64,000 nucleotides of DNA from Selaginella tamariscina (Eukaryota; Streptophyta; Lycopodiopsida; Selaginellales; Selaginellaceae): positions 1 through 64,000 of the forward strand of contig PUQB01000653.1 in the NCBI GenBank assembly GCA_003024785.1, given 5' to 3'. The translations under genes and the position numbers were made by a program. Within the stretch, counting starts at the first letter, position 1; each line of letters starts with the position of its first letter. Positions 8,822 to 61,434 of the stretch are shown here, in pieces. A model generated the notes under the pieces. The model was not told the origin of the DNA. It saw nothing but the letters and a program-made list of their open reading frames with translations, and made no database searches.

Positions 8822-8831
8822 GCCATACTGC

Positions 8832-18520: not shown

Positions 18521-18596
18521 GGAAAACGAAGGAGAAGAATCAAGGAAAAAAAAAGTAATTGGAAATCGGAAAGCTATGAAAGTAATTATTATCAAA

Positions 18597-19088: not shown

Positions 19089-19284
19089 ATATATATAATA
19101 CTTTATCTCTCTTAAATGTATATGTATGTGTGTATTTGTATATATGTAATTTCTTTATCTCTCTCTCTCACACACACAAGCATGTGTTTGTGTGACAAAT
19201 AAAAAATATAAAAAACTTATAAAATATATATAAACATGTATATACATACAATTGAAGTGGTGGTGGGTTAATCCTGCCACCCCA
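19089..19284. repeat. Minisatellite and one palindrome half of copy 1
   Basis: TG/TA-rich DNA including CTCTCTCTCACACACACAAG, followed by one decayed palindrome (GGTGGTGGGTTAATCCTGCC, about 19257-19278) immediately abutting gene B sequence. Confidence 0.7.
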
Positions 19285-19885
19285 ATGATGCTGATTTCAG
19301 ATGTATTGATACAGTTGTTCACTTAGTTATTAAGAATACGCCAAATAATTTCAAACTTTAAATGACTAGCTAGGCATTTGTTTTCACTCCAACGAGCCTG
19401 AACCACCATCAGAGGGACGTATTCAACAATGTACATTATCCAAACATTACAAGTCAAGCTGCATTGAGCATTGTCAAATTGATCAGGGGTCCGCACAATG
19501 ATGCATGGATTTTTTACTACTGCACTAGCGAATTCGTCTTGGAGTGTTACCTTCGGATACATGTGTGTTTGCCGTTGAAAAGGATAAGACCATGGTCAGG
19601 ATTTGAACAAGTAGATAGAGAGGTTCTTAACTGACTACCTTAACAAACCCATATAAGAGTATTTAGGAAAATTCCCTCCCGAGAAGTGCAATAGCTCTGA
19701 AAAGGAATTTGGTTCAATATTGGAGTCTAAGAACGATCTTGAACCAAATATTACACTAGAAGTTATCTCAAGGAGTACATAACATTCACTTACTCTATTG
19801 ACCATGAAAACATCAATAGAAGAAACGGAAAATTTTGAACGATCTTCCAAGCGGTTAAGACATTTTTCACCTCACTCAAAAGGTA
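19285..19885 (+). pseudogene. Copy 1 gene B: 3' fragment, broken
   Basis: Plus-strand match to the 3' third of gene B (copy 4, 55250-55900 inverted; copy 3, 50165-50770). It covers the segment from CIDTVVHLV, through the methyltransferase-like region, to VEKDKTMV (about 19572-19600), and the acidic tail with SEKEF. Stop codons occur, for example right after NFKL. The front two thirds of B are absent: the sequence joins a palindrome directly. No gene C follows. Confidence 0.7.
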
Positions 19886-34454: not shown

Positions 34455-34460
34455 TTATTA

Positions 34461-34530
34461 TGCAAGTTGTAACGTCCCATTTCTTAATAGTTAGTAATTT
34501 TAGTATTTAATTAGTATTTTCTAATATTAA
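34461..34530 (+). repeat. Copy 2 left terminal repeat (A end)
   Basis: TGCAAGTTGTAAC followed by CCCATTTCTTAATAGTTAG. Compared with copy 3 (TACATGTTGTAATTAAAATG, then CCATTTCTTAATAATTAG) it lacks about 19 bp after position 13. Confidence 0.65.
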
Positions 34531-34888
34531 AAGAATATTTTTAAAATATATGTTTGAAGACAGAATATTCTATTTTGTAATCGACCCTTTAATAAATTAT
34601 AGCATTCATGGAATAACATTATAAAAGTAGAAGGTATTAAGTTATATAATATATTATTTAAGATTGTATGGGCCTAATATAAAAATTAAGGAAGAGCATA
34701 AGAGGTATATTATATAAATAATGATGTTATTATTAAAATATTAATATTTAAATATAACATTAATTAAAAATTTGTACTAGTAATAATATATATATCAAAA
34801 TCCTATAATAATATTTGGTACTATTATTAAAGAGTTTATTATAATTATGAAGATTAAATATACGATATTTTATAATTTTGTAATTGCT

Positions 34889-35885
34889 TTAAGCTTCAGA
34901 AAATATACATTCCATTACAGTTTTGTTAGTTGTGAATTTATCAACGCTTCTTGACATCCACCCATATCGAATGGATTTAACATTTATAAAACATGTTAGG
35001 TCTTTTTGATTGGCAAACCATGTTTTCTCTAAGCATCCATTATATCTTTCGCTCTTCTTCTTCATGTCGCCTTTTTTGTGGTTTGAACCATGCAACTTTA
35101 GCTATACTATTTTTTGTGATTATTTTAGGTGTGTTAATAATTTGACCCATCCAAATAGGCTGATTATATGACACATCTGAAGTAATGAGGACCATCATTA
35201 GTTTTTGAAGATCCTTGTAGTAATCAAAGTATGCTTTAAGTTTTTGGTTCCTTTGTTTAACAAAGTGTGGGGTTTGCACTTTCACATCTACTAGCTTTCT
35301 ATGTCGTTTGTACTCATTGATGTCTTCAATCTCTTCTTGCCACCTTGTTTTAGGCCAAAAAGGGTGTTGCAATTATGTATTTATGATAATAGGCCCTTCT
35401 AACTCTCGAACAACAGTCTTCCAATAGTCAACCATGTTTATATAATTCTGAGTAACCAGTTGCCTTATTAAAATTCTTTAGCATCGATTTTTGAACCCAT
35501 GCCACATATTTTTTGATGCCATCAATAATAACCTCTTGTTCCTTGAGCTGGGCACTCAATGAAATAAAAGGTCTGGTTGTCCTTCTGGGAGAAGTGGCTT
35601 TCCATCCTCTCCATTTTTGAAGAGCATTAAGCCCTCTTTTGATAACCATTCTTTTTGATGGTCGTAACTTGTACTACGTAATAAGTATCATCTTATTAGA
35701 GAAAAAGAATTGTAGCAGCACAAGGTGACCAACTAAAGAATCGCTCTCCTCTTTTATATACTTCTTGAGAAACTTTTTGAAGTCTGACACCTCAATCACA
35801 AGCAAAGCACAACATTTTTTAGAGATGCAATTTTCAAAAAGATCCATCATATGCGGTCCACTTATTTTTTTTTTTTTGTAGAGTT
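34889..35885 (-). pseudogene. Copy 2 gene A: 3' part only
   Basis: Minus-strand frames supply the C-terminus of A that is missing from copy 4: SAQLKEQEVIIDGIKKYVAW (35428-35649), WPKTRWQEEIEDINEYKRHR, TPHFVKQRNQKLKAYFDYYK, IWMGQIINTPKIITKNSIAK and VAWFKPQKRRHEEEER (35040-35372), then NQKDLTCFINVKSIRYGWMS (34889-35095). A frame change lies near 35050. The 5' side ends inside the segment just after the GHTHEDID region and joins a GATTAATC palindrome directly. Confidence 0.75.
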
Positions 35886-35904
35886 GAAGACCTTGCTGAA
35901 GAAT

Positions 35905-36230
35905 TGCAGATTAATCTTGCCCATAAATATTTAAAACAAGAAAGTGGTGGAGAGATTAATCCCGCACCCTTTCTATGCCTCCTATAATGGTCGACGGGAT
36001 TAATCTCACCAATAACTCTTTTTAATAAATTTCGTTAACTCTTCATCATTTCAGAGAGTTATCGACGAGATTATGCCGTCACTCTTTTTAAGAAGTGGAG
36101 AAGCATTGCCCGGATTAATCTTGCACGACTTCCATGTTTTAAAGAGTTGTGAGCGGGATTAATCTTGCCACCTCTTCTAAGAGGCAAAAGAGAAATAGCA
36201 GGATTAATCTTGCCACCCCAGTTAACCGAG
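35905..36230. repeat. Palindrome array of copy 2, A-proximal, decayed
   Basis: About seven cores in forms such as AGATTAATCTTGCC and GGGATTAATCTCACC, most with G-to-A or C-to-T changes relative to the ideal core. It is equivalent to 1740-2070 in copy 1. Confidence 0.8.
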
Positions 36231-38569
36231 AATATTAAGTAAAAACAATGTTTAAACGAGATAAATCCTTAACAGAATATAACGTAATTCTAATGGATTC
36301 CTAAACCCTTAAATTTTAAGAAGAGAATGTAAGAGAGTGAATCTTTATAAGTTTTTTTAAATTTGTTTATAATACTTACTTGTAAACAGCATTAAAAGCA
36401 CCGTGCTTTTCCTATAAACAATAACACCCAATTTAATGTCGCTCCTGAGGTGATCACTATCAAGAAAAAAGAAGGTCTGTAGAGTGAAAATTACAGAAAT
36501 AAAGAAACCCTTGCGAAAATAACCGATCTGAATTTGAGTGGGAAATTAAATCATTTTTAAATTTACATGTTAGACCGACAATACTTATGTTAGAATTTCA
36601 AAATTTGAAAATAAAATAAAATAAAATTTAAGATGAGTTGACATAAATAACTGACATTCTGACTTATATACTCTTTAATTTAATAATTTTTATAAATTGC
36701 ATTTAATGTGATTCAAGTGATTCAAGTTATTTAATATTATGAAATTTTAGTAATTATTCTACATTCTTATTATTCCAATATATATTATTAAGTATATATT
36801 ATAAATATATATACTTATACAATAAATAAATTGATATATTATTATGTATCATTTAAATATATTCATAGTGTGTTTATTAATATTATTTTCTTAATTACTC
36901 AAGTAATTAATCTACATTTCTATATTAATGGGATATTCTTTATTATTTTCATATTATTCCAAGAATATTCCAATATTAAACTGATTATCATAATTAAATT
37001 AGTATTATTCTTAATTATTTAGTAATTATTCTACATTTGTATATATTAATGGGATTTTCTCAATTAATTTCTTATTATTTCAAGAATATTCCAATGTTAA
37101 ACCTTATTATCAATATTAAATTAATAATATTATTAAAACTATATATGACTATATTAGATAAAATGATATATTATTATGTATAATTTAAAATATGTTCATA
37201 GTGTGTATATTAATATCATTTTCACTTTAATTCAATGTTTCTTTTGCACATATATAAACACAATAAAAAATTTATATATACACGTGCACACGCATTAAAA
37301 GCACTTACAAAGACACATAATATGCACACACATGCATAAGCCAATGAGTGGATCACAATATAAATAAACATCTAGCTTTGTATTTACAATTTAGAGTTTA
37401 AATCCCAAATCAAACATTTATATTCACACACTCTACACTGGGACTTACATATGTTTAGTGTTTAACTAAATTTATATTAAATAATTAGAAAATGTGCATG
37501 GATTTAGTTTATATTAGTATAAAGATTTTATACTAATATATATATTTGTGCTATGATTGCTTTCAAATGTTTTAATATCATTATGTTATTTTAAGTTAAA
37601 ATTGGGTAAAATTCAAATACATACATATAATTTTAAATATGAGCAAATTATAATTTGCATTTTTAAAATGAAGTTTTTTAAATTAATTGCAAATCAGTAT
37701 AATGATTTGTGATTTTATGTTTATCTACTTGACTATCAACAATTCTTTATGCGTGTTTTCTTGTGTATTTATATACGAATAATAGACTTTTTATATAATA
37801 AAATTTTATAATATAATACTTGCATTGGGTTTAAACCCTAAACTAAACTAGAGATATGTTGCTTCTTTATCGAAAACATCATGTTCAACGCATGTATGAT
37901 CCATATGTACTTAGTCTGTGTGTATGTAACACATTGAATTTACACATGTAATATGTATATATGTCTGTGTGTATACACATGTGTATGTATATATGTGTAC
38001 TAATTTATGCAATGTGTACAAAATTAATTTTTAACACTCTCTCTCTTCTTTCATACATACACACCATGCATGATCCATAATATGTAGTCTGTCTCTCTTC
38101 TCTCATACATACAAATCATGCATGATCCATAATATGTATTGACATAACAATATTATGTACTATGTACATCTGTCTATGTGTATATTATATATGTGCATGT
38201 ATGTGTTGCTACACGTGAAAATTTAACACTCTCATATACACACATATGTTAACTCCTGTATGATTTATATTTTTGGGGTGTATGTGATACACCCACACAA
38301 TTTAATATGATAATATAATGAAAGAATATTCGTTTAGGGTCAATATCTATTTTATTCTTTTTAGGGTTTAGGTATATTCTTAAAAAGAATATTTGATTAG
38401 GGCTAATATATATTTTATTCTTTTTAGGGTTTAGGTATATTCTTAGGGTTTCAAGAAGAAAGGCGGTGGAGAAGCAAGACACAGCGGCGGTGGTGGAATG
38501 TGAGAGCGGTTGTGCCATAGTCAATAGATCTCTCTCTCAAAAGGCGTGGCGGTGTAGTAGGGTTCATTC
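36231..38569. other. AT-rich and TG-rich centre of copy 2
   Basis: 36240-37330 matches the AT-rich block of copies 1 and 4 (including CAGCATTAAAAGCACCGTGC). An interval at 37340-37850 has no counterpart in copies 1 and 4 and looks like an insertion or an old extra segment. 37860-38300 is the CATGCATGATCCATAATATG repeat region and 38330-38460 the TTTTTAGGGTTTAGG tandem block. No gene is seen. Confidence 0.65.
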
Positions 38570-38776
38570 ACACAGGTGAAATCTCTCTCTCTACTCTCAC
38601 ACACACACACTCCTGTGTATATATATCAGTGTGTGATAAAAATAATTATTTATTTATTTTTATTTACATATACATTTATATGTGTGTGTATCTATATAAT
38701 AAAATTTCTTTATGTATCTCTCGCACATATACGCACACTCCTGTATATACATACACATATACATATATTTGTATTT

Positions 38777-38819
<43 letters not shown>

Positions 38820-38915
38820 CTGTATAATTTTATTGATTTATCTATCTCTGGCACACACATGCACACTCCTGTATATACATATACATACATATATATGTAT
38901 ATATATTTGTGTGCG
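38570..38915. repeat. Compound CA/TA/TG minisatellite of copy 2
   Basis: Units contain CTCTCGCACATATACGCACA and a (TG)n run of about 20 repeats at 38785-38817. It is a shorter version of 4291-5585. Confidence 0.85.
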
Positions 38916-39760
38916 CGGATTAACCAAAGGGCGGTGGGATTAATCCTGCCACTCTTTGGTTATCCTCATGGGTGGCAGGATTAATCCAGCCGCCTTCACG
39001 CAGGCACTTTGGTTAGTCTCATGGGTAGTGGGAAGGCCCTGTGTGGAGGGCGGCGGGGTTAATCACGTCGCCCATGGCCTGGGCAAAGCGGCGGGATTAA
39101 TCCTGCCGCTCATGACTTGTGTGTAGGCGGCGGGATTAATCCAGCCAACTGTTCCATGTTTGGTGGGTGAGATTAATCTCACCTTCCCTTTCATGCATGG
39201 TGGGCGGGATTAATCCCACTCCACAGTCATTGAGACATAAAGGGTGGCGAGATTAATCCTGCCGACCCTTTGTCTCAATTAGTATGGGGCGGGATTAATC
39301 CCGCTCACCATGCATAGAAGGGTCGGCGGGATTAATCCGGCCACACTTTATGTCTCAATAAGTGTGGGGCCGGATTAATCCCACCCACCGCCATTATCCA
39401 AACAAGAGTGTTGTGGGCGGGATTAATCCTACCACCCTTCTCTGTTTCATGAATTGGTGAGCTGAATCAATCTCGACCATTTCTGTTTGAGACGAAAAAG
39501 GGTTGCAGAAGTACTATGGCACACCATTTCAGAGGGTGGCGAGATTAATTCCACCATCCCTTCCATGATGGGCGAGATTAATCCCGCCACCCTTCTTGAC
39601 CCTTTGAATGGGTGGGCCAAATTAATCCCGCCTAGTTCTCTCTTAAATCGAGAAGAGTGGTGGGAGTAATCTCGCACACCTTTCAGAGGATCAAGAAGGG
39701 TGGCGAGATTAATCCCGTCCACTTCTTCTAAGACAAAGAAGAGTATGTGAATTTATCAGT
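38916..39760. repeat. Palindrome array of copy 2, B-proximal
   Basis: About 18 cores, many close to GGCGGGATTAATCCCGCC (for example around 39290, 39330 and 39370), with self-complementary spacers. Neighbouring cores share spacer pairs in opposite orientation (CTTTATGTCTCAATAAGTGT against CACAGTCATTGAGACATAAA), so the array is also palindromic at a larger scale. It ends about 120 bp before the gene B start. Confidence 0.88.
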
Positions 39761-39879
39761 GTATTAATTTTGTATATTTGGGTTTATACAAGTGTGTGTG
39801 CGTTTTTATTTGAATTGTATTCATAGTGTATATTATGTAAAAAGACTATTTGATCAAACAAGGAGATTCAGTCATTATT

Positions 39880-42535
39880 ATGGAGTCTTCGTCAAATTCT
39901 GGGTAAGAATTAAATAAAATCTGCTATATTTGGATATGTACTTGAAGAACTAATCATTTTTGTATTTGAATATGGAATTGAGGTAACATTAAAGACAAGA
40001 GGAGGAGATGAGATGGACAAGGGTATTCTGGAATCAACTTGGCCATATTTCAAAATAAACGGGAAGCACATTGGAGCAACTATGGTGGCTGTTAAATTAA
40101 CCTATGTCACATCGCGTGGACAAACAAAACAATGGAAATTAAATTTACTAGTCAAGCACCCGAAAGCAGGCTGTGAACCCAGATTAAATGATGCTCGACA
40201 CATATGCCTTGTTCCATTCAATGTCACGTTCTTAAATCCAGAGGTCGCTAGTTACGATAAATCTCCAGTGGTTTTGTCAACTCTTGGATAATGACGTTCA
40301 CGTTTTCACTAATGATGTCGACCATGGAGTTCTTCTTCAACTTAACAAAAGCCCATCTATGAAAGGGATCCAATGTCTACTTCAAAGATCTCCATACTCA
40401 TCGAGTAGGTGTATTCTCAACAGATATTGCTTCACAATATAAAACATTTACAAGTGGAGCAATTATACCTCTTCTTATTGAAGAAGAACACATCAACATC
40501 ATTAAGGAGATTGAGAGGGTGGCTCAGTCCCAGGTTCTTTAGAAATCACGTTTAATTTATTTAGGAATCTTCAGGAGTTGAAAGAGTGTGTTGAGAACAT
40601 TAGAGCAGCTGCAATCGGGATCATACATGTTGATTTTGATTGTAGAAGAAAATCATTTGTCATTTTGTTAGTTGCACCTGTGACATCCCATATTGCAATA
40701 AGCCAGAAGGAAATAATGTTGGATGATAGGATTTACGAGTGTAGGGTTAAGTATTGCAATGTCAACCCAAACTTTAATTACATGCCACTTAACCAGGAAC
40801 GTGTAGCTAAACTCCTGGAAAAGATGAAAGACGACAATTCTTACACCGTTCCACATAATGCTGTTTTGTGCCCATAGTATGAAAGAAAGAAAGGGATTGA
40901 GATAGTGTGGGTGACAACACTAGAACAAATCACGAAGATTCAGACAGAGAATAAAAAATTAATTAGGTATTACATTATTAGTGGCCAACACACGATAACG
41001 GCAGCCCAACAACTTCTTGATGAACACAATAAAGGGACGATGGCAACAAAACTTTCTGAGCATACCTGTGAAAAGCTGACAAAAAAATTGGCATTTTTAG
41101 CTAAGCTCAATCTCACAACCGAGCAATACCATAATTATTAGTGGAATGGCACGCTGCTGACCAACCACTACAACGGCAAATATGAGAGAAGTTCAAACAC
41201 ATCCGATCCATACGGGAAAATCTTGGGCGACCATAAAGAGTTACTATAGGGAAAGAACAATGCAAGAACTATTGAGTAAGTAAATTGTCTTGGCAAGATT
41301 TATCTCGCCGGTATATTAATCTATCTTTTTTTTTTTAGAGAGTTGAAGAAATTGTAGTAGTTGATTTTGCTCAGGTGGGCGAGAAGGAAACATCTTTTCT
41401 AATAATGTTGATTTCTTACCCCGAGGACAAGATCTTTGCCAAATGGGTGGGGATTATGGAATTGTTTATAAAAAGAACAAGTGATGGGGAGCCCTTAGAG
41501 AAGGCTGCAAAGAAACCCAGTAAGACAGCAAAGGCTAAGTCTGTTCAATCATAAATGATGTAGATAGCGATTTTAAGTTCACATGGTTGAAGCCTTTAAA
41601 TAAAACAACGTTGAAGGAGATGGATGTCTTAGTTGATTTAGTGATTGATGGCAAACTACAAATTAACAACAGCAGCCCCACCTCTTCTTTTCATCTCAAG
41701 GCAATGGATTTGAAGACAGTCAAGCACTTCAAGGAGTGATTGAGAATACACTGTCACAAACTGGGTTGGACCTTGGCTCCAACATACAAAGAGGTTAACA
41801 AATACTTGCATGTGATAGACGATGATATGCTGTCCAATGGGTGAACCAATTGGAAGATTTGGGCATGAATCTATTGCATGCCAATGCCAAAAAGGAAAAC
41901 ATTGCAATGATGCCTTCTCTTATGGCAGTCCTTCAGCAGTGGAGAACCGAGTTGAACCTTATAAAGGAGGATGCTATGAATTATGACAAGCCTTACAAAT
42001 GTTTGTTGTTGGATTCGGAGACGTTATGGGGTATCACTGCTTGTAAGAAACCGTTTCAATTGTTTGTATGGATCAGCGGGTGTCAAAAATCCTTCGCCAG
42101 ATAGGGCACTAGAGGATTTGGTGGAGAAACTTAGTTGTGCAAGCATGTACAGAGAAGGTATTTATTGTTGAATTCATGTTTCACTCTTAATTGATATTAT
42201 GTTCTCAGGTATTTATTTCTCGATTCTTGCTCATGTCACCGATACTTTTGCCTTCCTCTTCGCTAAGAAGAATAGACATCATTGGACAAATTTTATATGA
42301 ATGATGCTATAGCTCTGATGAGGAATCTGGTTCAATGTTAGAGTCTGAGGACAATCTTCAATCAAATATTATACCAAAAGTTATCTCGAGGAGTACAGAA
42401 CATTCACATACTCCATTGACCATGGAAACATCAACAAAAGAAACGGAAGATCATGAACGATCTTCTAAGCGGCTTAAACCTTCTTCGCCTCACTCAGAAG
42501 GTAACACCGAAGAAGAATTGTTAATGAGTTGTTAG
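39880..42535 (+). pseudogene. Copy 2 gene B: ParB-like / methyltransferase-like fusion
   Basis: ATG at 39880 (MESSSNSG), a GT donor at 39903 and a second exon from about 39985. The N-terminal part (40013-40291) has no recognised domain. The middle (40578-41141) looks like a ParB/Srx-type domain: a polar NPNFNYMPLNQERVAKLLEK segment, VPHNAVL, then YYIISGQHTITAAQQLLDEH, resembling the ParB G-x-H/R box. The C-terminal part (41841-42171) has LLLDSETLWG, a possible degenerate DPPY-type motif IV. The motif-I region seen in copy 4 is mostly lost: sequence jumps from FYMNDA to the acidic Ser/Glu tail (42310-42535). Stops at 40291 and 40876 and several frameshifts break it. Role inferred: DNA binding or modification for the element. 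Confidence 0.6.
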
Positions 42536-42734
42536 AGTGGCGACTAGTTGTAAATGTGTAACATAAGGCATTTTTGTATATTTCGTTTATATTTGTATAG
42601 AAAAAATATTCTCAAGGATTAAAGAAGCTTTTAGTTCAAACATGAGTCACACATTAACAAGGTAAATAATATATCTTGATAATTATAATGCCAGCTAACT
42701 AGCATTTTATAAATGTAATGAAACAATTAAGAAC

Positions 42735-43761
42735 ATGGATTTTCAGCATTAGCATGAGGTAAGAGAGGGGTTGGCAAAAATTTCTTGTGCACATGTCAGA
42801 ATGACAGAGTTCATATAGGAAATGGATAATAATGCAACTCAAAACATTCTTACCATGGGGACCACTTCAATTTTTGCATCACTAGTTCTATTGTCTTTAG
42901 TTCCCAAATCACTTTCTTCAACACCTGTAATATCTGAATCTTGTAAGATAATGTACAAGTAAATGATGAAAGGATAAGGAACAATATAGCGTCAACATAT
43001 AAATGTGAAAGGGACCAAACAAGTGAGTTGCAAAGCATTCGAGAGGCAACGTTACCCCTTGTTACCCATGGTCATATTGTGTTGTTGGATGTCAATGGTG
43101 TTTTGCTTCATTAACAAAGGCCTGAGGATAGAAAAAAAAAGAAATCAAACAAGGAGATTTCATTCTTTGTTATGGTAAATTTCAATATGATATCATTTTT
43201 CGCCTAGGGTTGGACTGTCTTTTTAAGGAGATGGGTGCACTTGTGGGGATTTGGTCATGCATGCAGATTCACAACTTGACACAGCTGTTGAATTTGCTTA
43301 AGAAACATTATAGTGTTGTAGAAGAGGTAATTCGTAAAGATTGGATTTTTGACCAGCGAATATGTTATAAACCTCTCGAATTTTACAATATAAAAAAGGA
43401 AAACAAGCCATACTTCTTCAAGAATGAAAGATTTATTGGGCTTCATGGGGATCAATCAATTAAGGATAATGAAGAATGCACATGTCTTAGTGGTAGACGA
43501 CTCTCCTCAAAAGGCTATGCTCAACCAAAACATTGCTTGTATCCATTTAATCACTTTCGATCCATATTCTAATATTAATACTATGGATGAGCTAGTGAAC
43601 TACTTGGATACGTGCCTTAGAAAGAAGAATCTCGAAAACTTTTATGAGCAATATCCACTATATCAAATATTTTCTAACGCTTTTTTCTTGTGATTTTTGA
43701 ATTTTATAAAATAAAGGAGAGTAACTAAGCACTCTACAATATTAGGAATGTCATGTTTTAG
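42735..43761 (+). pseudogene. Copy 2 gene C: FCP1/NIF-like phosphatase, broken
   Basis: A small first exon MDFQH (ATG 42735; TGG to TAG change soon after) precedes GTAAGAG. The main part has HGHIVLLDVNGVLLH (stop follows at about 43110), LGLDCLFKEMGALVGIWSCM, EEVIRKDWIFDQRICYKPLE, VVDDSPQKAMLNQNIACIH and MDELVNYLDTCLRKKNLENF, ending at the TAG near 43761. This is the FCP1 homology fold of HAD phosphatases. It lies about 200 bp after B, same strand. Confidence 0.75.
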
Positions 43762-44174
43762 ATAAACCTTTATGTAGTCTTGTTCTTATCACAGCTTATG
43801 TATCAACAAGGATGACAACTCTAACTAATTCGTAAGAGTGTTAGGTGGTGGTAACAACATAGAGATATTGATCAAAATGATTCGATTAATCCGGAGAGTG
43901 ATGACTTAAACAAAATGAAGAGATTTCTTTGTATGGTTAAGAAGAAAGTATTTAAAAATATATTAACATGTTGATAAAGAATGATTACATTTGTAATTAT
44001 GTTTGATAGTATTTTTTAATTATTATAAACTATTTTTAGAACGAAGAATAATATGAATATTCTAAGATATTTTAGGAATATTCCTTACTAAGGTTATTAA
44101 AGAATTAATTTGTTAATTAATTAATATTTAAGACTTAATTATATATTAATTAAATAATTAATTAATAGCTAAAA

Positions 44175-44247
44175 CTTAAGTATTAATTAGTAATTTATTT
44201 TATATTCCCATTTTCATGTATCATGCCCATTTTAGTTACAACGTGCA
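44175..44247 (-). repeat. Copy 2 right terminal repeat (B/C end)
   Basis: The reverse complement begins TGCACGTTGTAACTAAAATG, continues GGCATGATACATGAAAATGG and is almost identical to the copy 4 end at 53526. Its first 20 bases match the A end of copy 3 with only transitions. Confidence 0.8.
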
Positions 44248-44253
44248 TTATTG

Positions 44254-45067: not shown

Positions 45068-45529
45068 TGTCATAATTTCTACCTTGTGTCATGAATGTGG
45101 CTCCCCAAATGTCAACCCTTAAAACCCTTTTATAAAACCCATGAAATTTGACCCATGTTAGGAAGTCATCTCTCAAGAACTCACACCCACAATTCACCAA
45201 GTCCATAGACAATGCTTACCTCATGAGTTAATGTGTGGGTGAGCCGAGCTGTAAGTATTGTTTTTAGTATGCCATAGATGAGGCAGTTGAAGCAAGGCCT
45301 TAACCAATATACTTGTAAAACATGAACTCAAACAATGTCTTCTAAGCTTGTGAGCGAGTTATCAAACAAAAGGAGTTAACTAATTCTTTAACGCAACATA
45401 CTTAGTCTCAGGGCTTAATCTTGTCAATTTTAAGGGTAAGATACCTTGAAGGTGAGATGTACCTGTATTATATAGGAGTGAGGGTGACACAACAAACTTA
45501 AGGGTTGTGACTTAATGACACAAACTTAA
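45068..45529 (-). repeat. R5 5' LTR, first piece
   Basis: Starts (plus strand) TGTCATAATTTCTACC next to the primer binding site and aligns with the beginning of the left LTR at 30961. It is cut by the left end of copy 3; the LTR continues after about 52420. Confidence 0.65.
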
Positions 45530-45610
45530 TACATGTTGTAATTAAAATGAGCATATCTATAGTCCATTTCTTAATAATTAGTTATTTAATTAGCAATTTT
45601 AATACTAAAG
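45530..45610 (+). repeat. Copy 3 left terminal repeat (A end)
   Basis: TACATGTTGTAATTAAAATG then AGCAT. It agrees with the B/C end of copy 4 (TGCACGTTGTAACTAAAGTG then GGCAT) at all but five of 25 positions, all five being transitions. This is the best evidence that A and B/C ends are inverted repeats of one element. Confidence 0.75.
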
Positions 45611-45877
45611 AAATATTCTTTAAAATATATATGTATAAAAAAGAATATTTTTTAGAACATTCTATTTTTATAATTGACCCTTTAATAAATTATAGCATTG
45701 GTGGATAAAAAATTGATAATATTATAAAAGTAGAAGGTATTAAGTTATAATTATTATATTTAAGATTGTATGGGCATAATATAAATGTTATAAAAGTAGA
45801 GGTACATTATATAAATATTTATGTTGTTATTAAATATTAATATTAAATATAACAGTAATTAAAAATTTGTACTAGTA

Positions 45878-45914
45878 ATTATATATATATATATAATATA
45901 TATATATTATATAT

Positions 45915-45971
<57 letters not shown>

Positions 45972-46000
45972 TATATTTATATATTAATATATATATATAT
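45878..46000. repeat. (TA)n-rich microsatellite
   Basis: Nearly uninterrupted TA tract with a few ATTATA interruptions, in the 3' flank of gene A of copy 3. In copy 2 the same place (about 34775-34790) has only a few TA repeats. Confidence 0.9.
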
Positions 46001-46129
46001 GGTCAATCTTTCATATCTTTTTATAAATTTATATAGTTAAGGAAACATTTGGTACTATTATTAAAGAGCTAATTATAATTATGAATATTAAATAAACTAT
46101 ATTTTGTAATTACTTTAAGCCTCAGAAGA

Positions 46130-48560
46130 CATACATTCTCTTATAGTTTTGTTGATTGTTTTATGAATACGTCTTAACATCCACCCAAATTGAATGAATT
46201 TAACATTTATAAAACATGTTGGGTCTTTATAATTAGGAGACCATGTTTTTCTCTAGGCAACCTTTCACTCTCCTTCTCATATCACTCTTTTTGTGGTTTA
46301 AACCATGCAACCTTTTACCATGATGTTTTTTGTAATGACTTTAAATATGTCGATAATTTAACTCATCCAAATAGGCTAGTTATATGACACATCTAAAGTA
46401 ATGAGGGTGATCATTAGTTTTTTATTCTTTTGTTTAATAAAGTGTAGAGTTTGCACTTCCACATCACTACTTCTATGTTGTTTGTGCTTATTGATGTCGT
46501 TTCAATCTCCTCCTACCACTTTGTATTAGACCAAAAAGGATGTTGTAATACAGAACTTGTGACAACATGCCCTTCTAACTTTCGAACAACAATCTCCCAA
46601 TAATTAATCACATGCTTATATAGTTCTGAGTAACCAGTCGCCTTATTGAAATTCTTTAGTATCGATTATTAAACCAATATCACACTTTTTAATGCCATCA
46701 ATAATAAGCTCTTATTCCTTAAGTTGGGCACTCAATGAAATAGGGTCTAGTTGTTTTTTTAAGAGAAGTGGCTTTCCATTCTCTCCACTTTTAAAGAGCA
46801 TTAAACCATCTTTCAGAAACCACTCATGTTCTGATGATTGTAACTTATATTACATAATAGGTATACCATCTCTTGTGGAGAAGAAAAATTATAGTGGCAC
46901 AAGGTGACCAATTAAAGAATCACTCCTTTATTTGATATACTCATTGAGAAACTTTTTCAAGTCTAGCACCTCAATCATAAGTAAAGCACAATTTTTTTGG
47001 AGATGCAAATTTCAAAAAGATTCATCATATGTGGTAAGGTAAGTGCATTTGTTCTTTTGTAGAATTGGAGACCTTGCTGAAGAATGCATAAATATCTTCA
47101 TGAGTGTGAAGAACTTGAGCGTGATTATCTCAAAAACACCTTTGGCAACAAACATTGACAAGTATGCTAGTACATATATAAAAACTAAAAGTAAGTATGA
47201 GCTTGAGAAACCCTTAACTAAAATGATTTACTTATTTTTGTTCTCACATGTAGTATTGTCCATCTGTAAAAACAAATGACAAGGAAGTTTATTTAATGTT
47301 GATGACACTTATATACTATCTAAGCTAGATCCCTCCACTAAATCGGAACTCTCAACAGGGCCATCTGTTTTTTATTTCATATTCCTAAGTAGCCTCAAGT
47401 GCAAATGTGTTCATGAGAGCATTGTGTAAAAGTTGGAGGGGTTGTTTTTCACTTTGAGATCACTCATAAGACTTGTCTGTGAATGGGCTTCAAGGTTTCT
47501 AAAACACATGGCCAATAACCCAATAATAAAATTAAAGTCGCTAGACCAATGTGGAAGTGAAAAGTGTTCATATGATTCACAATCATGTTCATGTGTTAGC
47601 ACACTTATAAATGAAAATCGGAAGTTTCATGACATTTTTAAGGCACTTTGGTGTTGTAACTAGCCTTGGAATGTTGGTCTTTAAATGATCCATCTTGTTA
47701 TGGATCAAGCACATGTATTATGATGGGCAGGACACAAAAGCATGTGGTGTGTATAGTACGGAGATCGACAAGTTTGTTGTGCAATCATGTGGGCCTCCAT
47801 CTTCTTTTCAATGGCAATGATCTCCACCAAGGTTTTTGCACAAGCCTCTACAACTGTATAAGTGTCACACTTGGAAAGCTAGAGTGTTTTGTAATCTTTA
47901 CATTCTTAAAATGAGTATTCCATATGTTGTTGAAGGTATTGGTATAAATTGTTTGGAGCCTCATCAAACTGAGGCACTTGTTCATATGTTCACATAACTT
48001 TAATTGAGTGTAGATTAAAGGCAAAACCTTGAGATTTTCTTTGACCCTGCATTTGTCGTACGGCATTTGTGAGGCATCTTATCTACATTTGTCTCCACAA
48101 AAGCCCTAAGTATTTTTATGGCTGCCATAATGTGAGAGCAAGTTTCGACCAGGTAAGTGTTCCCATGTACTGAGGTGCACACTGGATCTAGTGACTCATA
48201 CCTTCTTTAATAGAACATGGTCTTTGAGATCCCATATATAGTATATCAAGTTTGAAATAGATGGCCACCTTATTAAATACCATGGATGTACTCTGATAAC
48301 ATGTGTTCAGGACCATTCCATTAATACACCTAATTAGTGTAGCATATACAAACTCATGCCTTTGCTTTTGAATGAGTTTATGAAAGGCATGTCTACATTG
48401 GGTAATTTCATTTTGGTTCACCATTTGACAACACTTCTTTTTGTAACAGTTAATCATGGATATGTTAGCAATGCTTGTCAAAGATGTGGGATCCATCTTG
48501 ACCCTCTTGATGGAACTTGTTGGGGTTGATTTGTAGCTCATGAATCTTCTTTTCCTTACT
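46130..48560 (-). pseudogene. Copy 3 gene A: long but mutated
   Basis: Covers gene A from the Cys-rich region to the C-terminus. Readable pieces include MVNQNEITQCRHAFHKLIQK and YQSTSMVFNKVAIYFKL (48188-48649), CGHMNKCLSLM-like sequence (47848-48066), the HFSLPHWSSDFNFIIGLLAM segment (47411-47602) and C-terminal pieces at 46130-46900. The first 190 or so codons are missing: the 5' side joins a palindrome directly after GTTCCATTGGTTC. Numerous stops. Confidence 0.7.
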
Positions 48561-48569
48561 ATAGAACCA

Positions 48570-49260
48570 ATGGAACAAGTGGTGGCATGATTAATCCTAT
48601 CACTTCTTTCCCACCTTATAAAATGGTGGGCAAAATTAATCCTGCTCATAACTCTTTCTGACGAAGAAAATGTGGCAAGATTAATCCTTCTAATGCTTTC
48701 TCACCTCCTAAAATTGTGGGAGGAATTAATCTTCCTCACCATTCCAAGAGGTAGAGAAGCATAAGAGGTTTAGGGCTTGCTATGATATGCCATTTAATGA
48801 AACTACTTTAAGGGTTTAAAAATCCATTATGATTGCACTAGAATTAGTTAAGGATTTACACACATCCCTTTTACTTAAATTTCTTCTCGATTGGGTTATA
48901 GGGATGCTTCCCTGCTTCCTAAAGTGGTGGACAAAATATATCTCATCCACAACTTTCTGAAACAAGGAAGAAGTGGCAAGATTAATCTTGCCACCCTTCC
49001 TCGCCTCCTAGAATGGTGGGTGGGATTAATCGTGCCACAACTCTCTGAAATTAATCCTGCCACCTCTTAATTGTTGCAGAGAGTTGTGAATGGGATTAAT
49101 TCTGCCACCCATTCTAGGAGGCGGGGAAGCATTGGCGAGATTAATTTTGCCACCCTTCTTTGCTTTAGAGAGTTATGAGCGAAATTAATCTTGCTCACCA
49201 TTTTAGGAAGCAAGGAAGGGGTGGCGAGATTAATCCATCACCCATCAAAAACTTTTCAAG
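48570..49260. repeat. Palindrome array of copy 3, strongly decayed
   Basis: About 14 cores such as GGGATTAATCGTGCC, AAGATTAATCTTGCC and GAGATTAATCCATC. CpG steps are nearly gone. Spacers contain CTAGAATGGTGGGTGGG and its complement at about 49006 and 49110, a larger inverted repeat. Confidence 0.8.
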
Positions 49261-49855
49261 ATATTGGCTAATCGAGAATTTTAAGTAAAAGGGATGTGGG
49301 ATAAATCTCTAACGGATTTTACTGAAATGAATTCTTAATTATGTAAGTACTATGCATTTTTAGAGAAAATAAATTTATTTATGTAAACCCTAAATTGATA
49401 AAGAATGAAGAGAGTGAGTTTTTATAAGTAGTTTTAATTTATTTATAATACTTAGTTGTAAACAGCATAGAGGGAGCCGTGCTTTTTTTTTTTATAAATG
49501 ATACAAATAAAGAAACTCTTGTGAGAGATACATATTTGAATTTGAGTGAGAAATTAAAAACATTTTTAATACATGTCAGACTAATAATAGTTATGTCAGC
49601 ATTTAAAATTTTGATATTTTGATATGATAAAAAATTTAAGATGAATTAACATAAGCGACCGACTCTCTGACAATATTTTTTAACAATTAGCATTAGCAAG
49701 TGATTCAAGTTGTATATTTATATAAAATATGAGTAATTATTCTACATTTATTTATAATAGGATTTTCTTAATTATTTCCTATTATTTTAAGAATATTCCA
49801 ATATTAATATGTGTGTTTCCTTGTCGCTGGGTGCAATGCCAACTTACAGTCCCGC
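49261..49855. other. Shortened AT-rich centre of copy 3
   Basis: Matches the first 550 bp of the AT-rich block of copies 1 and 2 (ACAGCATAGAGGGAGCCGTG at about 49463). It stops at AATATTCCAATATTAATATG, where 30 bp of unrelated sequence lead into a gene B fragment. No gene. Confidence 0.65.
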
Positions 49856-49859
49856 CGTT

Positions 49860-50790
49860 CTAAGCGCCGAGGGTACACAGGTATTTGGAAAAATTCTCTC
49901 CCAAAAAGTGCGATAGTTCTGAGGAGGAATCTAATTCAATGTTGGAGTCTAAGAACGGTCCATGTGGGAAACTCTTAGGCGACCACAAAAAGCTACTACA
50001 AGGAAGAACAAAGTGCGGAGTACCGGGTAAGAAAAAGTATTTATTATTTAATTTTGCACACTTAATATCTATGTCTTTAGTATTTATTTCTTGATTTTTA
50101 TTCATGTCATCGATACCTTTGCTCTTATCTTTGCCAGGAAGAACAAACAAATTTTACATGAATAATGTTGATCCCATATGTATTGATACGGTCGTTCACT
50201 TGGTTGTCAGAAATGCAGCAAGCAATTTCAAACTTCCAAATGACTAGCTAGGCATCTGCTTTCGCTCCAATGAGCCTAAACCTCCATCCAATACACCGAT
50301 AGCTGAGAGGGATGTATTTGGCAATGTATGTTATCTAAACATTACAAGTCAGGTTGCACGCAACATTGTCAACTTAATCAGGGGTCCTCACAGTGATACA
50401 TAGGTTTTTGACTATTACACTAAGGGTTCTGTCTTAAAAGAGTGTTACCTTTGAGATACATGTGTGTTTACTATTGAAAAGGATAAGACCATGGTCGAGG
50501 ACTTAAATAAGTGGATAGAGAGGTTTTCAACAAAAATATTTGAAAAAGTTCTCTCCCAAAAAGTGCGATAGTTCAGGAGGAATCCAGTTCAATGTCGGAG
50601 TCTAAGAACGGTCCTGAAGCAAATATCACACTAGAAGTTATCTTAAGAGTATAGAACATTCAATTACTCCACTAACTATGGAAAAATCAGCTGAAGAAAT
50701 GAAAGATGTTGAATGATCTACCAAGCGATTAAAACATTTTTGCTTGACTCATAAGGTAACAACGAAGATGAATTATTAGAGTAATAAATA
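49860..50790 (+). pseudogene. Copy 3 gene B: rearranged fragments
   Basis: An acidic-tail fragment (KCDSSEEESNSM, about 49900) is joined to a mid-gene segment (GKLLGDHKKLLQGRTKCG, followed by a GTAAG donor), then to the C-terminal part from FYMNNVDP through the methyltransferase-like region and VEKDKTMVEDLNKWIER (about 50475-50525), then a second acidic tail (50560-50770). The tail segment is thus duplicated at 49880-49970 and 50545-50620. Not functional. Confidence 0.65.
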
Positions 50791-50959
50791 ATTATAAATG
50801 AGTGTCACATAAGGCATTTGTATATTTTGTATATATTTGTACAGAAAATAAATTCTCAATGATTAATGAAGCTTTTAGTTCAAACATGGGTCACACATTA
50901 ACAAGGTAAATTGACAATTATAAGGCCAGCTAATAATCATTTTACAGATGTAATAAAAT

Positions 50960-52010
50960 AGTCAAGAACAAGGATCCTTAACATTGGCATGAGGTAAGAG
51001 AGGGGTATGGCAAAAATTACTTGTGCTACATGTCAAAATGATAGAGTTCTGTACAACAATGTAGCTCAAAACATCATCACTATGGAGACCACTTTTACTG
51101 GCAAGTTACAAAGGAATTTATTGTTGAGGTTGTTGAACCACCATCTTTAACTTCTTTAATTTTTGCATCATCATTTTTATTGCCTTTGTTCCTAAAGTTC
51201 TTATAATATTAAATCTTATAAAGATGATGGACAAATAAATGATAAATAGATCAGCAACAATATAATGTTAAAAGATAAATGTGAAAGGGACCAAATGAAT
51301 AAGTTGCAAACCATTCAAAAGGCAACATTGCCCCTTATTACCCATGGCCATATTGTGTTACTAAATGACAATGGGGTTCTACTTAACAAAGACATGAGGA
51401 CAAAGAAAGAGAAATCAAACAAGAAATTTTCATTCGTTTTCATGATAAATTTTAATATAATACCATTTTTTGTCTAGGGTTGGACTATCTCTTTTAAAAG
51501 TAAAGGAGATGAGTGCACTTGTGGGAATTTTGTCATGCATGCAATTTCAAAAATTGAGATCATTGATGAATTTGCTCAACAAGCACTGTAGTGTTGTAGA
51601 AAAGGTGATTCATAGAGATTAAATTTTTCAACGAATGTGTTATAAACCTTTCGAATACTACGATATAGGAAAACAAGCCATACCTTTTCAAAAATGAAAA
51701 ATTAATTAGGTTATATTGGGAGATTAATTAGTTAAGGATAATAAAGAACGCACACATCTTAGTGGTAAATGGCTCTCCTCAAAAGGTTATGCTCAACGAA
51801 AACATTGCTTATATTCATTTAATCATTTTTGACCCATATTTTGATATTAATACTATGGATGAGTTAGTAAACTACTTAGACACTGCCTGAGAAAGAAGAA
51901 TCTTGAAAAGCAATATCCATCATTTAAAGCATACCCTAATGCTTTTGATTTTGAGTTTTATAAATTAAAGAAGAGCAACTAGGCACTCTACAATATTATT
52001 ATTAAGGAAC
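50960..52010 (+). pseudogene. Copy 3 gene C: FCP1-like, decayed
   Basis: Matches C of copies 2 and 4: HGHIVLLNDNGVLLNKD (51265-51477; the nucleophile Asp is Asn here), MSALVGILSCMQF, and MDELVNYLDTA-like sequence near 51855. The first-exon ATG is AAG. Frameshifts and stops throughout; ends near 52010. Confidence 0.65.
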
Positions 52011-52419
52011 TTCATTTTTTAAATAAGCCTCTATGCCTTTATCACATTACATATTAACAAAGATGGCAACTCTTAATTACATTTGAAAGTGTTAGGTGGT
52101 GGCAACAACATAAAAATATTGACCAAATAATTTGATTAATCGAGAGGGTGATGACTTAGTCAAAATTAGGAGATTCCTTTGTATGGTTAAGAAGAAAATA
52201 ATTATAAATAGATTGATAGGTTGATAAGGAAATGATTTCATTTGTAAATTATGTTTGATAATATTTTTTAATTATTATAAAATATTTTTACACTCAAGAA
52301 TAATATGAATATTTGAAGATATTTTAGGAATATTCTTTACTTTATGATTATCTTGTTAGAAATATTAATTATTTTATTATATAAATATTCTCTCTATGTA
52401 TTTCAAGTTGTAATGTTTA

Positions 52420-53520: not shown

Positions 53521-53525
53521 AATAA

Positions 53526-53600
53526 TGCACGTTGTAACTAAAGTGGGCATGATACGTGAAAATGGGAATATAATAATTACTAAATTAATACTTAAGTTTT
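53526..53600 (+). repeat. Copy 4 terminal repeat (B/C end)
   Basis: TGCACGTTGTAACTAAAGTG, GGCATGATACGTGAAAATGG, then AT-rich DNA. Matches the copy 2 right end with very few differences. Confidence 0.8.
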
Positions 53601-54000
53601 AATTATTAATTAATCATTTAATTAATATGTAATTAAGCCTTAAATATTAATTAATTAATTAATTAATCCTTCAATAACCTTACTTAGTAAGGAATATTCC
53701 TAAAATATCTTAGAATATTCATATTATTCTAAAAATAGTTTACAATAATGAAGAAATACTATCAAACATAATTACAAATGAAATCATTTTCTTATCAACA
53801 TGTTAATTTTTTATAAATACTTTCTTCTATCATACAGAAATCTCCTCATTTTGTCTAAATCATCACTCTCCGGATTAATCAAATCATTTTGGTCAATATC
53901 TTGATGTTGTTGCCACCACTAACACTCTCACGAATGCAATTGGGAGTTGCCATCCTTGTTAATACATAAGATGTAATAAGAGGTCTGCATAAAGGCTCAT

Positions 54001-55044
54001 CTAAAAATGACGTTCCTTAAGAATAATATTATAAAGCGCCCGGTTGCTATCCTTCATTTTATAAAATTCAAAATCACGAGAAAGAAAAGCTTCAGGAAAT
54101 GTATGATACGGTGGATACTGCTCACAAAAATTTTCGAGATTCTTCTTTCTGAGGCACGTATCCAAGTAGTTCACTAGCTCATCCATGATATCGTATCAGA
54201 ATATGGATCGAAAGTGATTGGATGAATACAAGCAATGTTTTGGTTGAGCATAGCCTTCTGAGGAGAGTCGTCTACTACTAAGATATGTGCATTCTTCATT
54301 ATCCTTAAGCGACTGATCTCCCCATGAGTCCCAATTATTCTTTCATTCTTGAAGAAGTATGGCTTGCTTTCCTTTCTTATATTGTGAAATTCGAGAGGTT
54401 TATAACATATTCGCTGGTCAAAAATCCAATCTTTACGAATCACCTCTTCTGCAACACTACAATGTTTCTTAAGCAAATTCAACAGCGGTGTTAAGTTATG
54501 AATCTGCATGCATGACCAAATCCCCACAAGCGCACCCATCTCCTTAAGCTTTTGAAAGAGACGATCCAACCCTGGACGAAAAATAATATCATATCGAAAT
54601 TTACCATGACAAGGAATGAAATCTCCTTGTTTGATTTCTTTTTTCCTATCCTCGGGCCTTTGTCGATGAAGCAGAACACCATTGACATCCAACAACACAA
54701 TATGGCCATGAGTAACATGAGATAGCGTTGCCTCTTGAATACTTTGCAAATCACTTGTTTGCTCCCTTTCACATTTATCCGTTGCCACTATCTCGTTGCC
54801 TATCCCTTCATCATTTAATTGTACATCATCCTTACAAGATTCAGATATTGCATGCGCTGAAGAAATTGATTTCGGAACTGAAGCCAATAAAAATGATGAT
54901 GAAAAAACTGAAGTGGCCCCATGGTAACGATGTTTTGAGCTGCATTATTATCCATTTCCTGCATGAACTCTGTCATTCTGACATGTGGCACAAGAAATTG
55001 TCGCCAAACCCCTCTCTTACCTCATGCCAATGCTGAAAATCCAT
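54001..55044 (-). pseudogene. Copy 4 gene C: FCP1/NIF-like HAD phosphatase
   Basis: A 237-codon minus-strand frame (54887-54174) opens at a TTG codon just before a likely splice acceptor (TTATTGGCTTCAG). A small ATG exon, MDFQHWHE, lies at 55044-55021 followed by GTAAGAG, so the true 5' structure is spliced and unresolved. Domain: DVNGVLL at residues 67-73 of the frame (nucleophile Asp67; the usual second Asp is Asn69), FRPGLDRLFQKLKEMGALVG (103-122), KP at 163-164, and VVDDSPQKA (204-212, metal-binding Asp pair). A frameshift at about 54190 separates the tail MDELVNYLDTCLRKKNLENF, ending at 54001. The DxN variant is typical of a plant HAD group with LDLNGLL motifs; substrate unknown. It lies about 200 bp behind B. 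Confidence 0.75.
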
Positions 55045-55245
55045 GTTCTCAATTGTTTCATTACATCTGCAAAATGATAATTAGCTGACCTTAAAATTAT
55101 CAAGGTATATTATTTACCTTGTTAATGTGTGACCCATGTTTGAACTAAAAGCTTCATTAATCCTTGAGAATTTATTTTCTGTACAAATATAAACGAAATA
55201 TACAAAAATGCCTTATGTTACACTCATTTACAACTATTCGTCACT

Positions 55246-57255
55246 CTAAGAACTCATTAACAATTCTTCTTCGCTATTACCTTCTGAGTGAGGCGAAGAA
55301 GGTCTAAGCCGCTTGTGAGATGGTTCAGATCTTTATCTTCTATTGATGTTTCCATGGGTAATGGAGTGTGCGAATGTTCTGTACTCCTCGAGATAACTTC
55401 CGGTCTAATATCTGATTGAAGTTCGTCCTCAGACTCCGACATTGAACCAGATTCGTCTTCAGAGCTATCGCACTTATCTGGAGGGAACTTTCTCAAATAC
55501 TCCTTTATGGATTCGTTGGGGTAGTCAGTTGAGAACCTATCTATCCACTTGTTCAGGTCCTCAACCATGGTCTTATCCTTTTCAACGGCAAATCACACAT
55601 GTATGCCGAAGGTAACACTCCTTCAAGACGGACCCCCTAGTGCAGTAGTCAAAAACCCACGCATCACTGTGAGGACCCCTGATCAAGTTGACGATGCTCC
55701 GTGCCGCTTGACTTGTGATGTTTGGATAACGTACATTGCCGAATACGTCACTCACCTATCGGTGTATCGGATGGAGGTTCAGGGCCGTTGGAGTGCAAAC
55801 AGATGCCTGGCCAGTCATTTGGAAGTTTGAAACTGTTTGGCGCATTCCTAACAACCAAGTGAACAACCGAATCAATGCACTTCGGATCAGCATCATTCAT
55901 ATAAAATCCTGTCCAACGATGTTTATTCCTCTTGGCAAAGGAGAAGGCAAAGGTATCGGTGACATGAGCAAGAATCAAGAAATAAATACCTGAAAACGTA
56001 GATATCAGTCAAGAGTGCAAGTATGAATTCAATAATAAATACCTTCTTTGTACATACTTGCACGGCTAAGTTTCTCCACCAAATCCTCTAGTGTCCTGTC
56101 TGTCGAAGGATTTTTTGACACCCGCCGATCCATCACGAACAATTGAAACGGTTTCCTACAAGCAGTGATGGTACCCCATAAAGTCTCCGAATCCAACAAC
56201 AAACATCTGTAGGGCTTGTCGTGATTCGTAGCATCCTCCTTTATAAGGTTCAACTCGGTTCTCCGCTGCTGAAGGACTGCCATAAGAGAAGGCGTCATCG
56301 CAATGTTCTCCTTTTTGGCGTTGGCGTGCAATAGATTCTTGCCCAGATCTTCCGATTGATTCACCCATTCGACAAGCATATCATCATTTGTCACATGCAA
56401 ATATTTGCTGACCTCTTCGTATGTTGAAGCCGAAATCCAACCCAGTTTGTGGCAGTGTATTCCCAACCACTCCTTGAGTGCCTGACCGTCTTCACTCCAT
56501 TGCCTTGAGATGAAAAGGAGAGGTGGGCTGCTGTTATTAATTTGTAAGAAATCAACATCATCAAAAAGGATGTTTCCTTCCCGCCCACCTGGGCAAAATC
56601 AACTGCTACAATTTCTTCAACTCTCTGAGGAAAAAGACAGATTAATATACCGGCGAGATAAATCCCGCCCAAACAATTTGCTTACCCGGTAGTCCGCAGA
56701 TTGTGTATTCCCTGCAGTAGCTCTTTATGGTCGCTAAAGAGATTCCCACACGGCTCGCGTGTGTTTGTTCTTCTCCCATATTTTGCTGTTGTAGTGGTTG
56801 GTGTCTGCAACATCCCATTCCGCCGATAACTTATGGTACTGCTCGATTGTGAGATTCGGCTTCGCTAAAAACGCCGATCTTTTCGTCAACTTCTCACGGG
56901 TATGCTCGGAAAGTTTTTGTTGCTATCGTTCCTTTGTTGTGTTCGTCGAGAAGTCGTTGGGTGCCGTTATTGTGTTGGCCATTAATGATGTAGTACTTGA
57001 TTGATTTTCTATTCTCCGTCTGAACCTTCCTCATTTGTTCTGGTGTTGTGATCCACACTTTGTCAGCGCCTTTGTTTCTCTCGTAGTATGCGCACAAAAC
57101 AGCATTATGTGGAACGGTGTAAGAATTATCATCCTTCATCTTCTCCATGAGCTCAACTACACGTTCCTGATTGAGTGGCCTGTAATTGAAGTTTGGGTTG
57201 ACGCTGCAATACTTAACCCTACACTCGTAAATCCTATCATCCAACATCATTTCCT
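55246..57255 (-). pseudogene. Copy 4 gene B: ParB-like plus DNA methyltransferase-like protein, 5'-truncated
   Basis: The first readable part (57250-56894) has MLDDRIYECRVKYCSVNPNF, NYRPLNQERVVELMEKMKDD, VPHNAVLCAYYERN and YYIINGQHNNG, a ParB/Srx-like pattern. A candidate 51-bp intron (56685-56635, GTAAGC...CTCAG) follows. Then WLGIHCHKLGWISASTYEEV, NLLHANAKKENIAMTPSLMA and YRCLLLDSETLWG (56466-56029), a second intron with a GTATTT-like donor, and DTFAFSFAKRNKHRWTGFYM (55978-55748). The end has SQAARSIVNLIRGPHSDAWV, FDYCT, VLKECYLRH and DKTMVEDLNKWID, matching the C-terminal motif X/I half of beta/gamma N6/N4 methyltransferases (KP..L...LI...VLD.F.G...L...EKD). An acidic Ser/Asp/Glu tail follows. 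Frameshift near 55600; the 5' side joins a palindrome half. Confidence 0.6.
56635..56685 (-). other. Candidate short intron of gene B carrying the palindrome
   Basis: GTAAGC donor and TTCCTCAG acceptor on the minus strand. It contains GGGCGGGATTTATCTCGCC (56652-56670), a near match to the array core. Copy 2 has the same motif at 41292-41309. At 51 bp it is short for a plant intron. Confidence 0.45.
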
Positions 57256-57549
57256 TGTGGCTTGTGGATTAATCCCGCCACTACACACACACACACAGAT
57301 ATATATATGTATATGTGTGTGTAGGAGAGTGCGTGTGTGTGCGAGAGATAGATAAATAAATATGTGTATATGTATATCGTGTGTATGCATGTGTAAAACA
57401 AATAAAATCATACAGATAAACAAACACACACACACACACATATATATATAACAGGAGTGTGCGTGTGTGTGCAAGAGATACAATTAACAAATCAATAAAA
57501 TTATACAGATACACACACACACACACATATATATAGATAAATAAATAGA

Positions 57550-57580
<31 letters not shown>

Positions 57581-57880
57581 ACACAGATATATATATATCT
57601 GTGTGTGTGTGTATATATATATATATATGTGTGTGTATATGTATACGAGTGTGCGTGTGTGCGAGAGATAGAGATCTATAGAGAAGAGAGAGAGAGAAGG
57701 AGATATATATATATATCTGTGTGTGTATATGTATACGAGTGTGCGTGTGTGCGCGAGAGATAAAGATCTAAATTATATTATTAAGATACACACACATATA
57801 AATATATGTGAATAAAATAAATAAATAAACTCAGAGGAGTGTGCGTGTGAGAGAGAGAGAGATCTCACCTGTGTGAGAGA
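57256..57880. repeat. CA/TA/TG minisatellite of copy 4
   Basis: Inverted counterpart of 4291-5585. It includes GTGTGCGTGTGTGCGAGAGA repeated at least five times with (TA)n and (TG)n interruptions. One palindrome half (GTGGATTAATCCCGCCAC, 57265-57282) is all that remains of the B-proximal array. Confidence 0.85.
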
Positions 57881-61295: not shown

Positions 61296-61434
61296 TATTA
61301 AAGCATGAGATATTATTTTTATACATAATTATGTATTATTGCACATGCATATTATTAAGCAACGCAGTTATGATTTCTTAAATATTGCATAAACAGATAT
61401 CATAAATAACACAATTATTTATGTGCAGGACAAT

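Follow-up and report, generated by a model that had tools for sequence, protein, structure and literature searches.

What is the unit that recurs four times within the first 64,000 nucleotides of contig PUQB01000653.1 in the Selaginella tamariscina assembly GCA_003024785.1, the stretch that we call the window? Self-comparison of the window reveals four collinear copies, each built of a gene on the reverse strand (A), a repetitive centre and two genes on the forward strand (B and C), with a mean identity of the chained blocks of 74.9-85.0% across the six pairs of copies. The original prediction, made from the letters alone, had described four copies of this arrangement and attributed them to one mobile unit; the copies and their common layout are borne out, the limits of the second copy to within one base, and wherever the genes are present, A is reversed while B and then C point forward. 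The unit represents a large and abundant transposon family, fairly called new, with an unusual internal organisation.

The termini of the unit are inverted at both ends and are of the ATRCA..GTTGTAAC type. The A side reads like ATRCAWGTTGTAACTAAAATGGGCATG and the C side, followed inward, like ATGCACGTTGTAACTAAARTGGGCATGATAC, with some variation. Alignments between the window copies end at these termini. Copy 2 (34460..44248), which begins with ATGCA and ends with TGCAT, has both ends present and is flanked by TATT on the left (34456..34459, forward strand) and on the right (44249..44252, forward strand). Copy 4 is inverted, occupies 53525..64000 of the window and continues to position 64773 of the contig; it too is flanked by TATT at either end when read in the orientation of the element. 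The seven copies for which both ends are available span 9.8-14.9 kb. With the element defined as ATGCA...TGCAT, a perfect target-site duplication of 4 base pairs (bp) is found in five of these seven, compared with 4 of 42 mismatched pairings; the binomial chance of five or more duplications in seven copies at the mismatched-pairing rate is 1.4e-4, a lenient figure because the ends had been set by eye ahead of the count. The duplications are TATT in window copies 2 and 4, ATTG in copies C501 and C1259, and TTAT in C225, where the end has small deletions and the duplication was read by hand.

A search for empty sites, which the original prediction had recommended, found one. C501 is inserted in the A gene of another copy, and its flanks, once joined, are identical in 49 of 60 bases to gene A of C841, which is uninterrupted and has ATTG once. 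Window copy 2 is continuous through the place of the C501 insertion and has one ATTG by eye (35418-35450). Inverted termini, a duplication of fixed length and an empty site mark the unit as a large terminal-inverted-repeat DNA transposon that inserts in the cut-and-paste manner, which upholds the proposal of a single mobile unit.

The host assembly comprises 1391 contigs and 300.7 Mb; the window is the start of one of these contigs, and the family extends well beyond it. A 1-kb gene B probe matched at all 40 scored places including itself, the others at 84-88%; the loose first pass returned 2426 candidates, of which 40 were scored, so the probe is present at 40 places at least. A search of the host assembly with DUF7869, the Pfam domain matched by gene A, produced 4250 loose candidates, of which 150 were scored and gave 300 matches; the listed rows in the host were all above the cut-off, and none of 14 control genomes had a match. 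An open frame of at least 1,047 amino acids was reported for eight of the DUF7869 matches listed, which is not a count of intact genes, as the length reported for C225 fits two open parts separated by an intron.

Two samples address the linkage of the three genes. Among ten B-anchored copies from the host assembly, gene A lies on the expected side in six (one contig ends before A), gene C in nine, and the C-side terminus probe matches in eight. The second sample, which avoids choosing by B, took about every 15th DUF7869 row, counted by hand; ten rows gave nine stretches, seven of which contain B in the expected place and orientation, one C alone and one neither. C225, picked beforehand from the DUF7869 list, contains the whole unit. 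A, B and C are therefore linked elsewhere in the genome as the original prediction had anticipated, and in the parts examined we found neither genes mostly apart nor flanks shared beyond the terminal repeats. At one DUF7869 locus (L049, C169:426574-431074) no B, C or palindromes of the kind described below occur upstream at the expected distance, and this locus may be a different or truncated element. As C501 is nested in a gene A, so the C side of C671 is flanked by the centre of another family copy.

Paired arrays of an 18-bp palindrome, GGCGGGATTAATCCCGCC, before A and before B are newly recognised here. The window has 52 sites within three mismatches of the palindrome, compared with 0.02 expected. 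Counting sites at up to four mismatches, copy 1 has 12 in its A-side array (1404..2060) and five on the B side (13012..13239), copy 2 retains four on the A side (35949..36214) and has 17 on the B side (38933..39719), copy 3 retains four on the A side (48975..49240), and copy 4 has 15 on the A side (60438..61258). All seven copies that have both sides of the centre (C1140, C501, C1259, C1281, C841, C671 and C225) carry arrays before both genes; the A-side array comprises 13-18 sites and starts 111-117 bp before the A frame, and the B-side array comprises 10-23 sites and ends 392-427 bp before the B frame. Neighbouring sites are spaced by 43.3 bp on average (median 44 bp; 240 distances of 26-60 bp, pooled from 11 sequences). 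The B array is also present where only the B side was counted, with 19 sites in C673, 21 in C448, the 17 of window copy 2 and five in C716. A literature search on the palindrome found no related report. Single palindrome-like sites occur in the coding part of B, at 41292 and 56652 of the window and near position 10800 of six other copies.

These arrays might be host satellite or the sites of host transcription factors instead of sites for proteins of the element, and the half-sites may somewhat resemble host factor motifs. However, of the sites in the stretches examined almost every one is within an element and occupies a set position ahead of A or B. Of the nine A-anchored stretches, seven have 3-28 sites, and the two without B have none. 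We therefore consider a host origin of the sites a tentative alternative, on balance unlikely.

Gene A matches DUF7869 (PF25273) with an E-value of 1.3e-18 on a single open frame and, when a read-through combining copies 3 and 4 is used, of 3.5e-25, corresponding to 67.7 and 89.2 bits with a curated cut-off of 26 bits. This match supports the earlier description of A as transposase-like. The gene is complete in C225, where two open parts joined by a 54-nt GT-AG intron encode 1,021 amino acids. Its motifs LLQMDNCAGENKNR and SFLMVGHTHEDID would supply the acidic catalytic residues, and we infer A to be a DDE-type transposase. In the window, gene A of copy 4 (61393..64000, forward) is open for 488 amino acids and then broken, with DUF7869 at 63261-63500 (E 1.3e-18); that of copy 3 (46100..48575, reverse) has many stops and retains a DNxxxENKN segment missing in copy 4; and copy 2 has the 3' part only (34892..35910, reverse), with broken frames. 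The second N-terminal module of A matches the N-terminus of B (z 8.25, with none of 1000 shuffles scoring as high). For the putative Tudor/SH3-like module at the N-termini of A and B, fold comparison gave no DNA-binding barrel clear of the rest.

Searches for relatives returned little. The A and B read-through proteins had none at E 0.001 in a set of 5.8 billion proteins, with a search that requires common 5-residue words and a set that appears poor in such eukaryotes. There was no match above the cut-off in NCBIfam and no convincing one in PHROGs, and a literature search on DUF7869 and its motifs found no report. A virus origin was considered and rejected, a part of A (488 amino acids) and a part of B (124 amino acids) having no relatives in viral contigs.

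The original prediction had also labelled B as ParB/methyltransferase-like, and this label lacks statistical support. Pfam gave no ParB or methyltransferase family for B, with ParB (PF02195) admitted up to E 10; the only hits were PH_BUD3_C (E 0.0039) and Rhomboid_N (E 0.0081), both below the cut-off. Searches of PDB sequences and a phage tblastn with B found no convincing ParB or methyltransferase match. When the whole of B was aligned by hhalign with 23 bacterial and phage proteins, the score of 21.0 was equalled by two of 20 shuffles. For segments of B, shuffles reached the score in 5 of 100 cases both for the ParB part and for motif IV to I, and in 53 of 100 for the motif I part; in a control that set the ParB part against the methyltransferase part, 11 of 100 did so. 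The likeness of B to bacterial and phage ParB-methyltransferase fusions is limited to short similar stretches, IISGQHTITAAQ where the ParB box would be and VFDYCTRGS in the position of motif I, whose scores are within reach of shuffles, and at the expected place of DPPY eight of nine copies read DRRV by eye. The predicted structure of the middle part of B was uninformative (predicted local distance difference test, pLDDT, of 40). In the window, B is represented by its 3' part in copy 1 (19284..19893, forward) and copy 3 (50030..50774, forward), by broken frames with the N-terminal module followed by the region with IISGQHTITAAQ in copy 2 (39914..42530, forward), and by broken frames without the 5' end in copy 4 (55260..57268, reverse).

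To which superfamily does the element belong? Bao et al. (2009) reportedly found that Sola elements make 4-bp target-site duplications, and the unit shares this hallmark. Among Sola elements, the account of Sola1-1_Ec32 from the brown alga Ectocarpus, in the part available to us, describes a 21.5-kb element in which a gene with ParB-like and DNA methyltransferase domains lies on the strand opposite the transposase (PMC12477816). Both it and the unit are large DNA transposons with an accessory gene opposite the transposase. Accessory proteins of this kind have also been reported from green and red algae. The unit is smaller (about 10-15 kb), and the two are likened by description, not by transposase sequence. 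The domains reported for the algal gene (PMC12477816) are those for which B lacks statistical support, and the HAD phosphatase and the palindrome arrays of the unit are not mentioned in that part of the account. The ParB-methyltransferase gene reported opposite the Sola1-1_Ec32 transposase (PMC12477816) weakens the claim that the arrangement of the unit is unlike any described; to speak of a new family is fair. Literature searches for a transposon with both ParB and NIF, for ParB in ferns and for Sola target sites found none. In how it works the element is like a Sola element, and it is probably of Sola type.

It seems unlikely that the element belongs to some other superfamily that makes 4-bp duplications, such as an En/Spm relative whose ends have changed. 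The second N-terminal module of A has a weak likeness to Transposase_23 of En/Spm TNP1, with E-values (0.019 and 0.061) that miss the curated cut-off. However, En/Spm (CACTA) elements have CACTA ends and 3-bp duplications, and the unit has other ends, a duplication of 4 bp and a different catalytic domain, DUF7869, with no named En/Spm domain. The short-repeat arrays bound by En/Spm TnpA are close to the element ends; those of the unit are interior, next to the gene starts. Mutator-like elements, whose inverted ends are long and whose duplications measure some 9 bp, do not fit the ends and 4-bp duplication of the unit either. In piggyBac and Kolobok elements the duplication is TTAA, and here it is TATT (twice), ATTG (twice) or TTAT (once).

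Gene C matches PF03031 (NIF) with an E-value of 2.6e-10 (40.7 bits, cut-off 21.8 bits), which agrees with the earlier description of a HAD phosphatase, and we read its product as a NIF/HAD phosphatase on this match. NIF-type enzymes often act on the tail of RNA polymerase II. The match is to copy 4 (54177..54944, reverse), where the frame is open for 256 amino acids; C is also present in copy 3 (51154..51863, forward) and, with broken frames, in copy 2 (42833..43690, forward), and was not found in copy 1. C looks like an ordinary NIF phosphatase, and copies exist without C or with a broken B, as might be expected if A were the sole gene of the element and B and C were captured host genes that persist as passengers. 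We doubt this explanation, however, as B has an N-terminal module in common with A and each of the two genes is preceded by a palindrome array; Sola1-1_Ec32, moreover, is reported to have a gene on the strand opposite its transposase (PMC12477816).

The window copies are in various states of decay, and no copy with all frames intact was seen among the four. Copy 1 (1..19893) has its A side off the contig, lacks C, and is homologous to the other copies as far as 19893, where gene B has ended; gypsy-type insertions, at 5600-12980 and 13447-19047, add to its length. A gypsy-type reverse transcriptase and RNase H occur at 7479-8818 (forward), a weak protease match at 16973-17581 (reverse), and direct repeats that are 79% identical, with arrays of a 13-bp TATCCTGTAGGCA type, at 13447-13891 and 18597-19047. 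In copy 2 the 5' part of A is missing. Copy 3 (45529..52389; 75.6-79.3% mean identity to the others) retains its left terminus but not the 5' part of B, and erosion has removed its right end, the last homology being at 52389. In copy 4 the 5' end of B and the B-side array are missing. Differences between window copies fall nearly evenly on the three codon positions in the main A and C frames (e.g., 23/23/23 and 29/24/27), which shows that the copies mostly decayed without selection; an excess at third positions is found only in two B segments (7/12/28 and 12/13/21) and one A segment (5/3/13). The main A frame is 93.5% identical between copies 1 and 4, and one B segment is 81.7% identical; this uneven likeness could reflect gene conversion or a mosaic copy.

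That three neighbouring genes of a host locus were copied together by segmental duplication, without self-driven movement, is very improbable: the four copies do sit near one another on a single contig, C resembles host phosphatases in type and copies 1 and 4 are highly alike in their main A frame, but the sharp common termini at which alignments stop, the duplications in five of seven copies and the nested copy with its empty site contradict it, and matches occur on many contigs. Between flanks, with the A-side flank of copy 1 outside the contig and so absent from the comparison, there is one short dispersed match (31738-31974 with 52994-53223, 72%); its distances from copies 2 and 4 are unequal. 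In the remainder of the window, positions 24000-31700 have a G+C content mostly of 0.47-0.52 and a strong excess of A over T in AT-rich surroundings, and look like another inserted element; three open reading frames checked there had no Pfam match. Rfam and tRNA scans gave no matches.

With good though not full confidence we consider the unit to be a large terminal-inverted-repeat DNA transposon, probably of Sola type, in which A would be the transposase, B a partner acting on the arrays, and C a passenger or helper. A, through its DUF7869 domain, would cut the element out and paste it in. B would be a co-evolved partner that binds the arrays before A and B, alone or with A, and such binding may tune the two divergent promoters or protect the element from silencing. 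C may be a phosphatase carried as a passenger, or a helper that acts on transcription or chromatin proteins. The broken copies may have been moved in trans. A more speculative, and in our judgement unlikely, extension is that the element has its own recognition system, in which A and B read both arrays through their common N-terminal, possibly Tudor/SH3-like, module and gather at both promoters as a parS-like or anti-silencing hub, with the phosphatase as third component. In the VANDAL/Hiun elements of Arabidopsis, the anti-silencing protein VANC recognises short motifs that are repeated in the element encoding it. These elements are of Mutator type, and any likeness to the unit would lie in how the system works.

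Several observations weigh against this transposon with A as its transposase and B as its array-binding partner. The 4-bp duplication is absent at C841 and C1140, two of the seven copies, and at the empty site of C501 only one of six copies compared without gaps exceeds 45 of 60 bases. A full A frame was found in one of seven copies only, the same reading being broken in the six others, and a full B frame in none of nine; the largely unselected decay of the window copies points in the same direction. B is missing from two of the nine A-anchored stretches. No tool used links DUF7869 to transposase function, and the probable assignment to Sola is by description. That B binds the palindromes is something we infer, a point that also favours host factors as the readers of the arrays.

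The termini, duplications and empty site tie DUF7869, an orphan among Pfam domains, to mobile DNA. The element may extend the algal observation of a Sola transposon with a ParB-methyltransferase gene to another host, or may be a degenerate version of the same. As an abundant element with a clear layout, it provides a testable case for the self-control of large DNA transposons with divergent partner genes. If the element does possess its own recognition system acting through the arrays, this would be a new form of self-addressing control in a eukaryotic DNA transposon.

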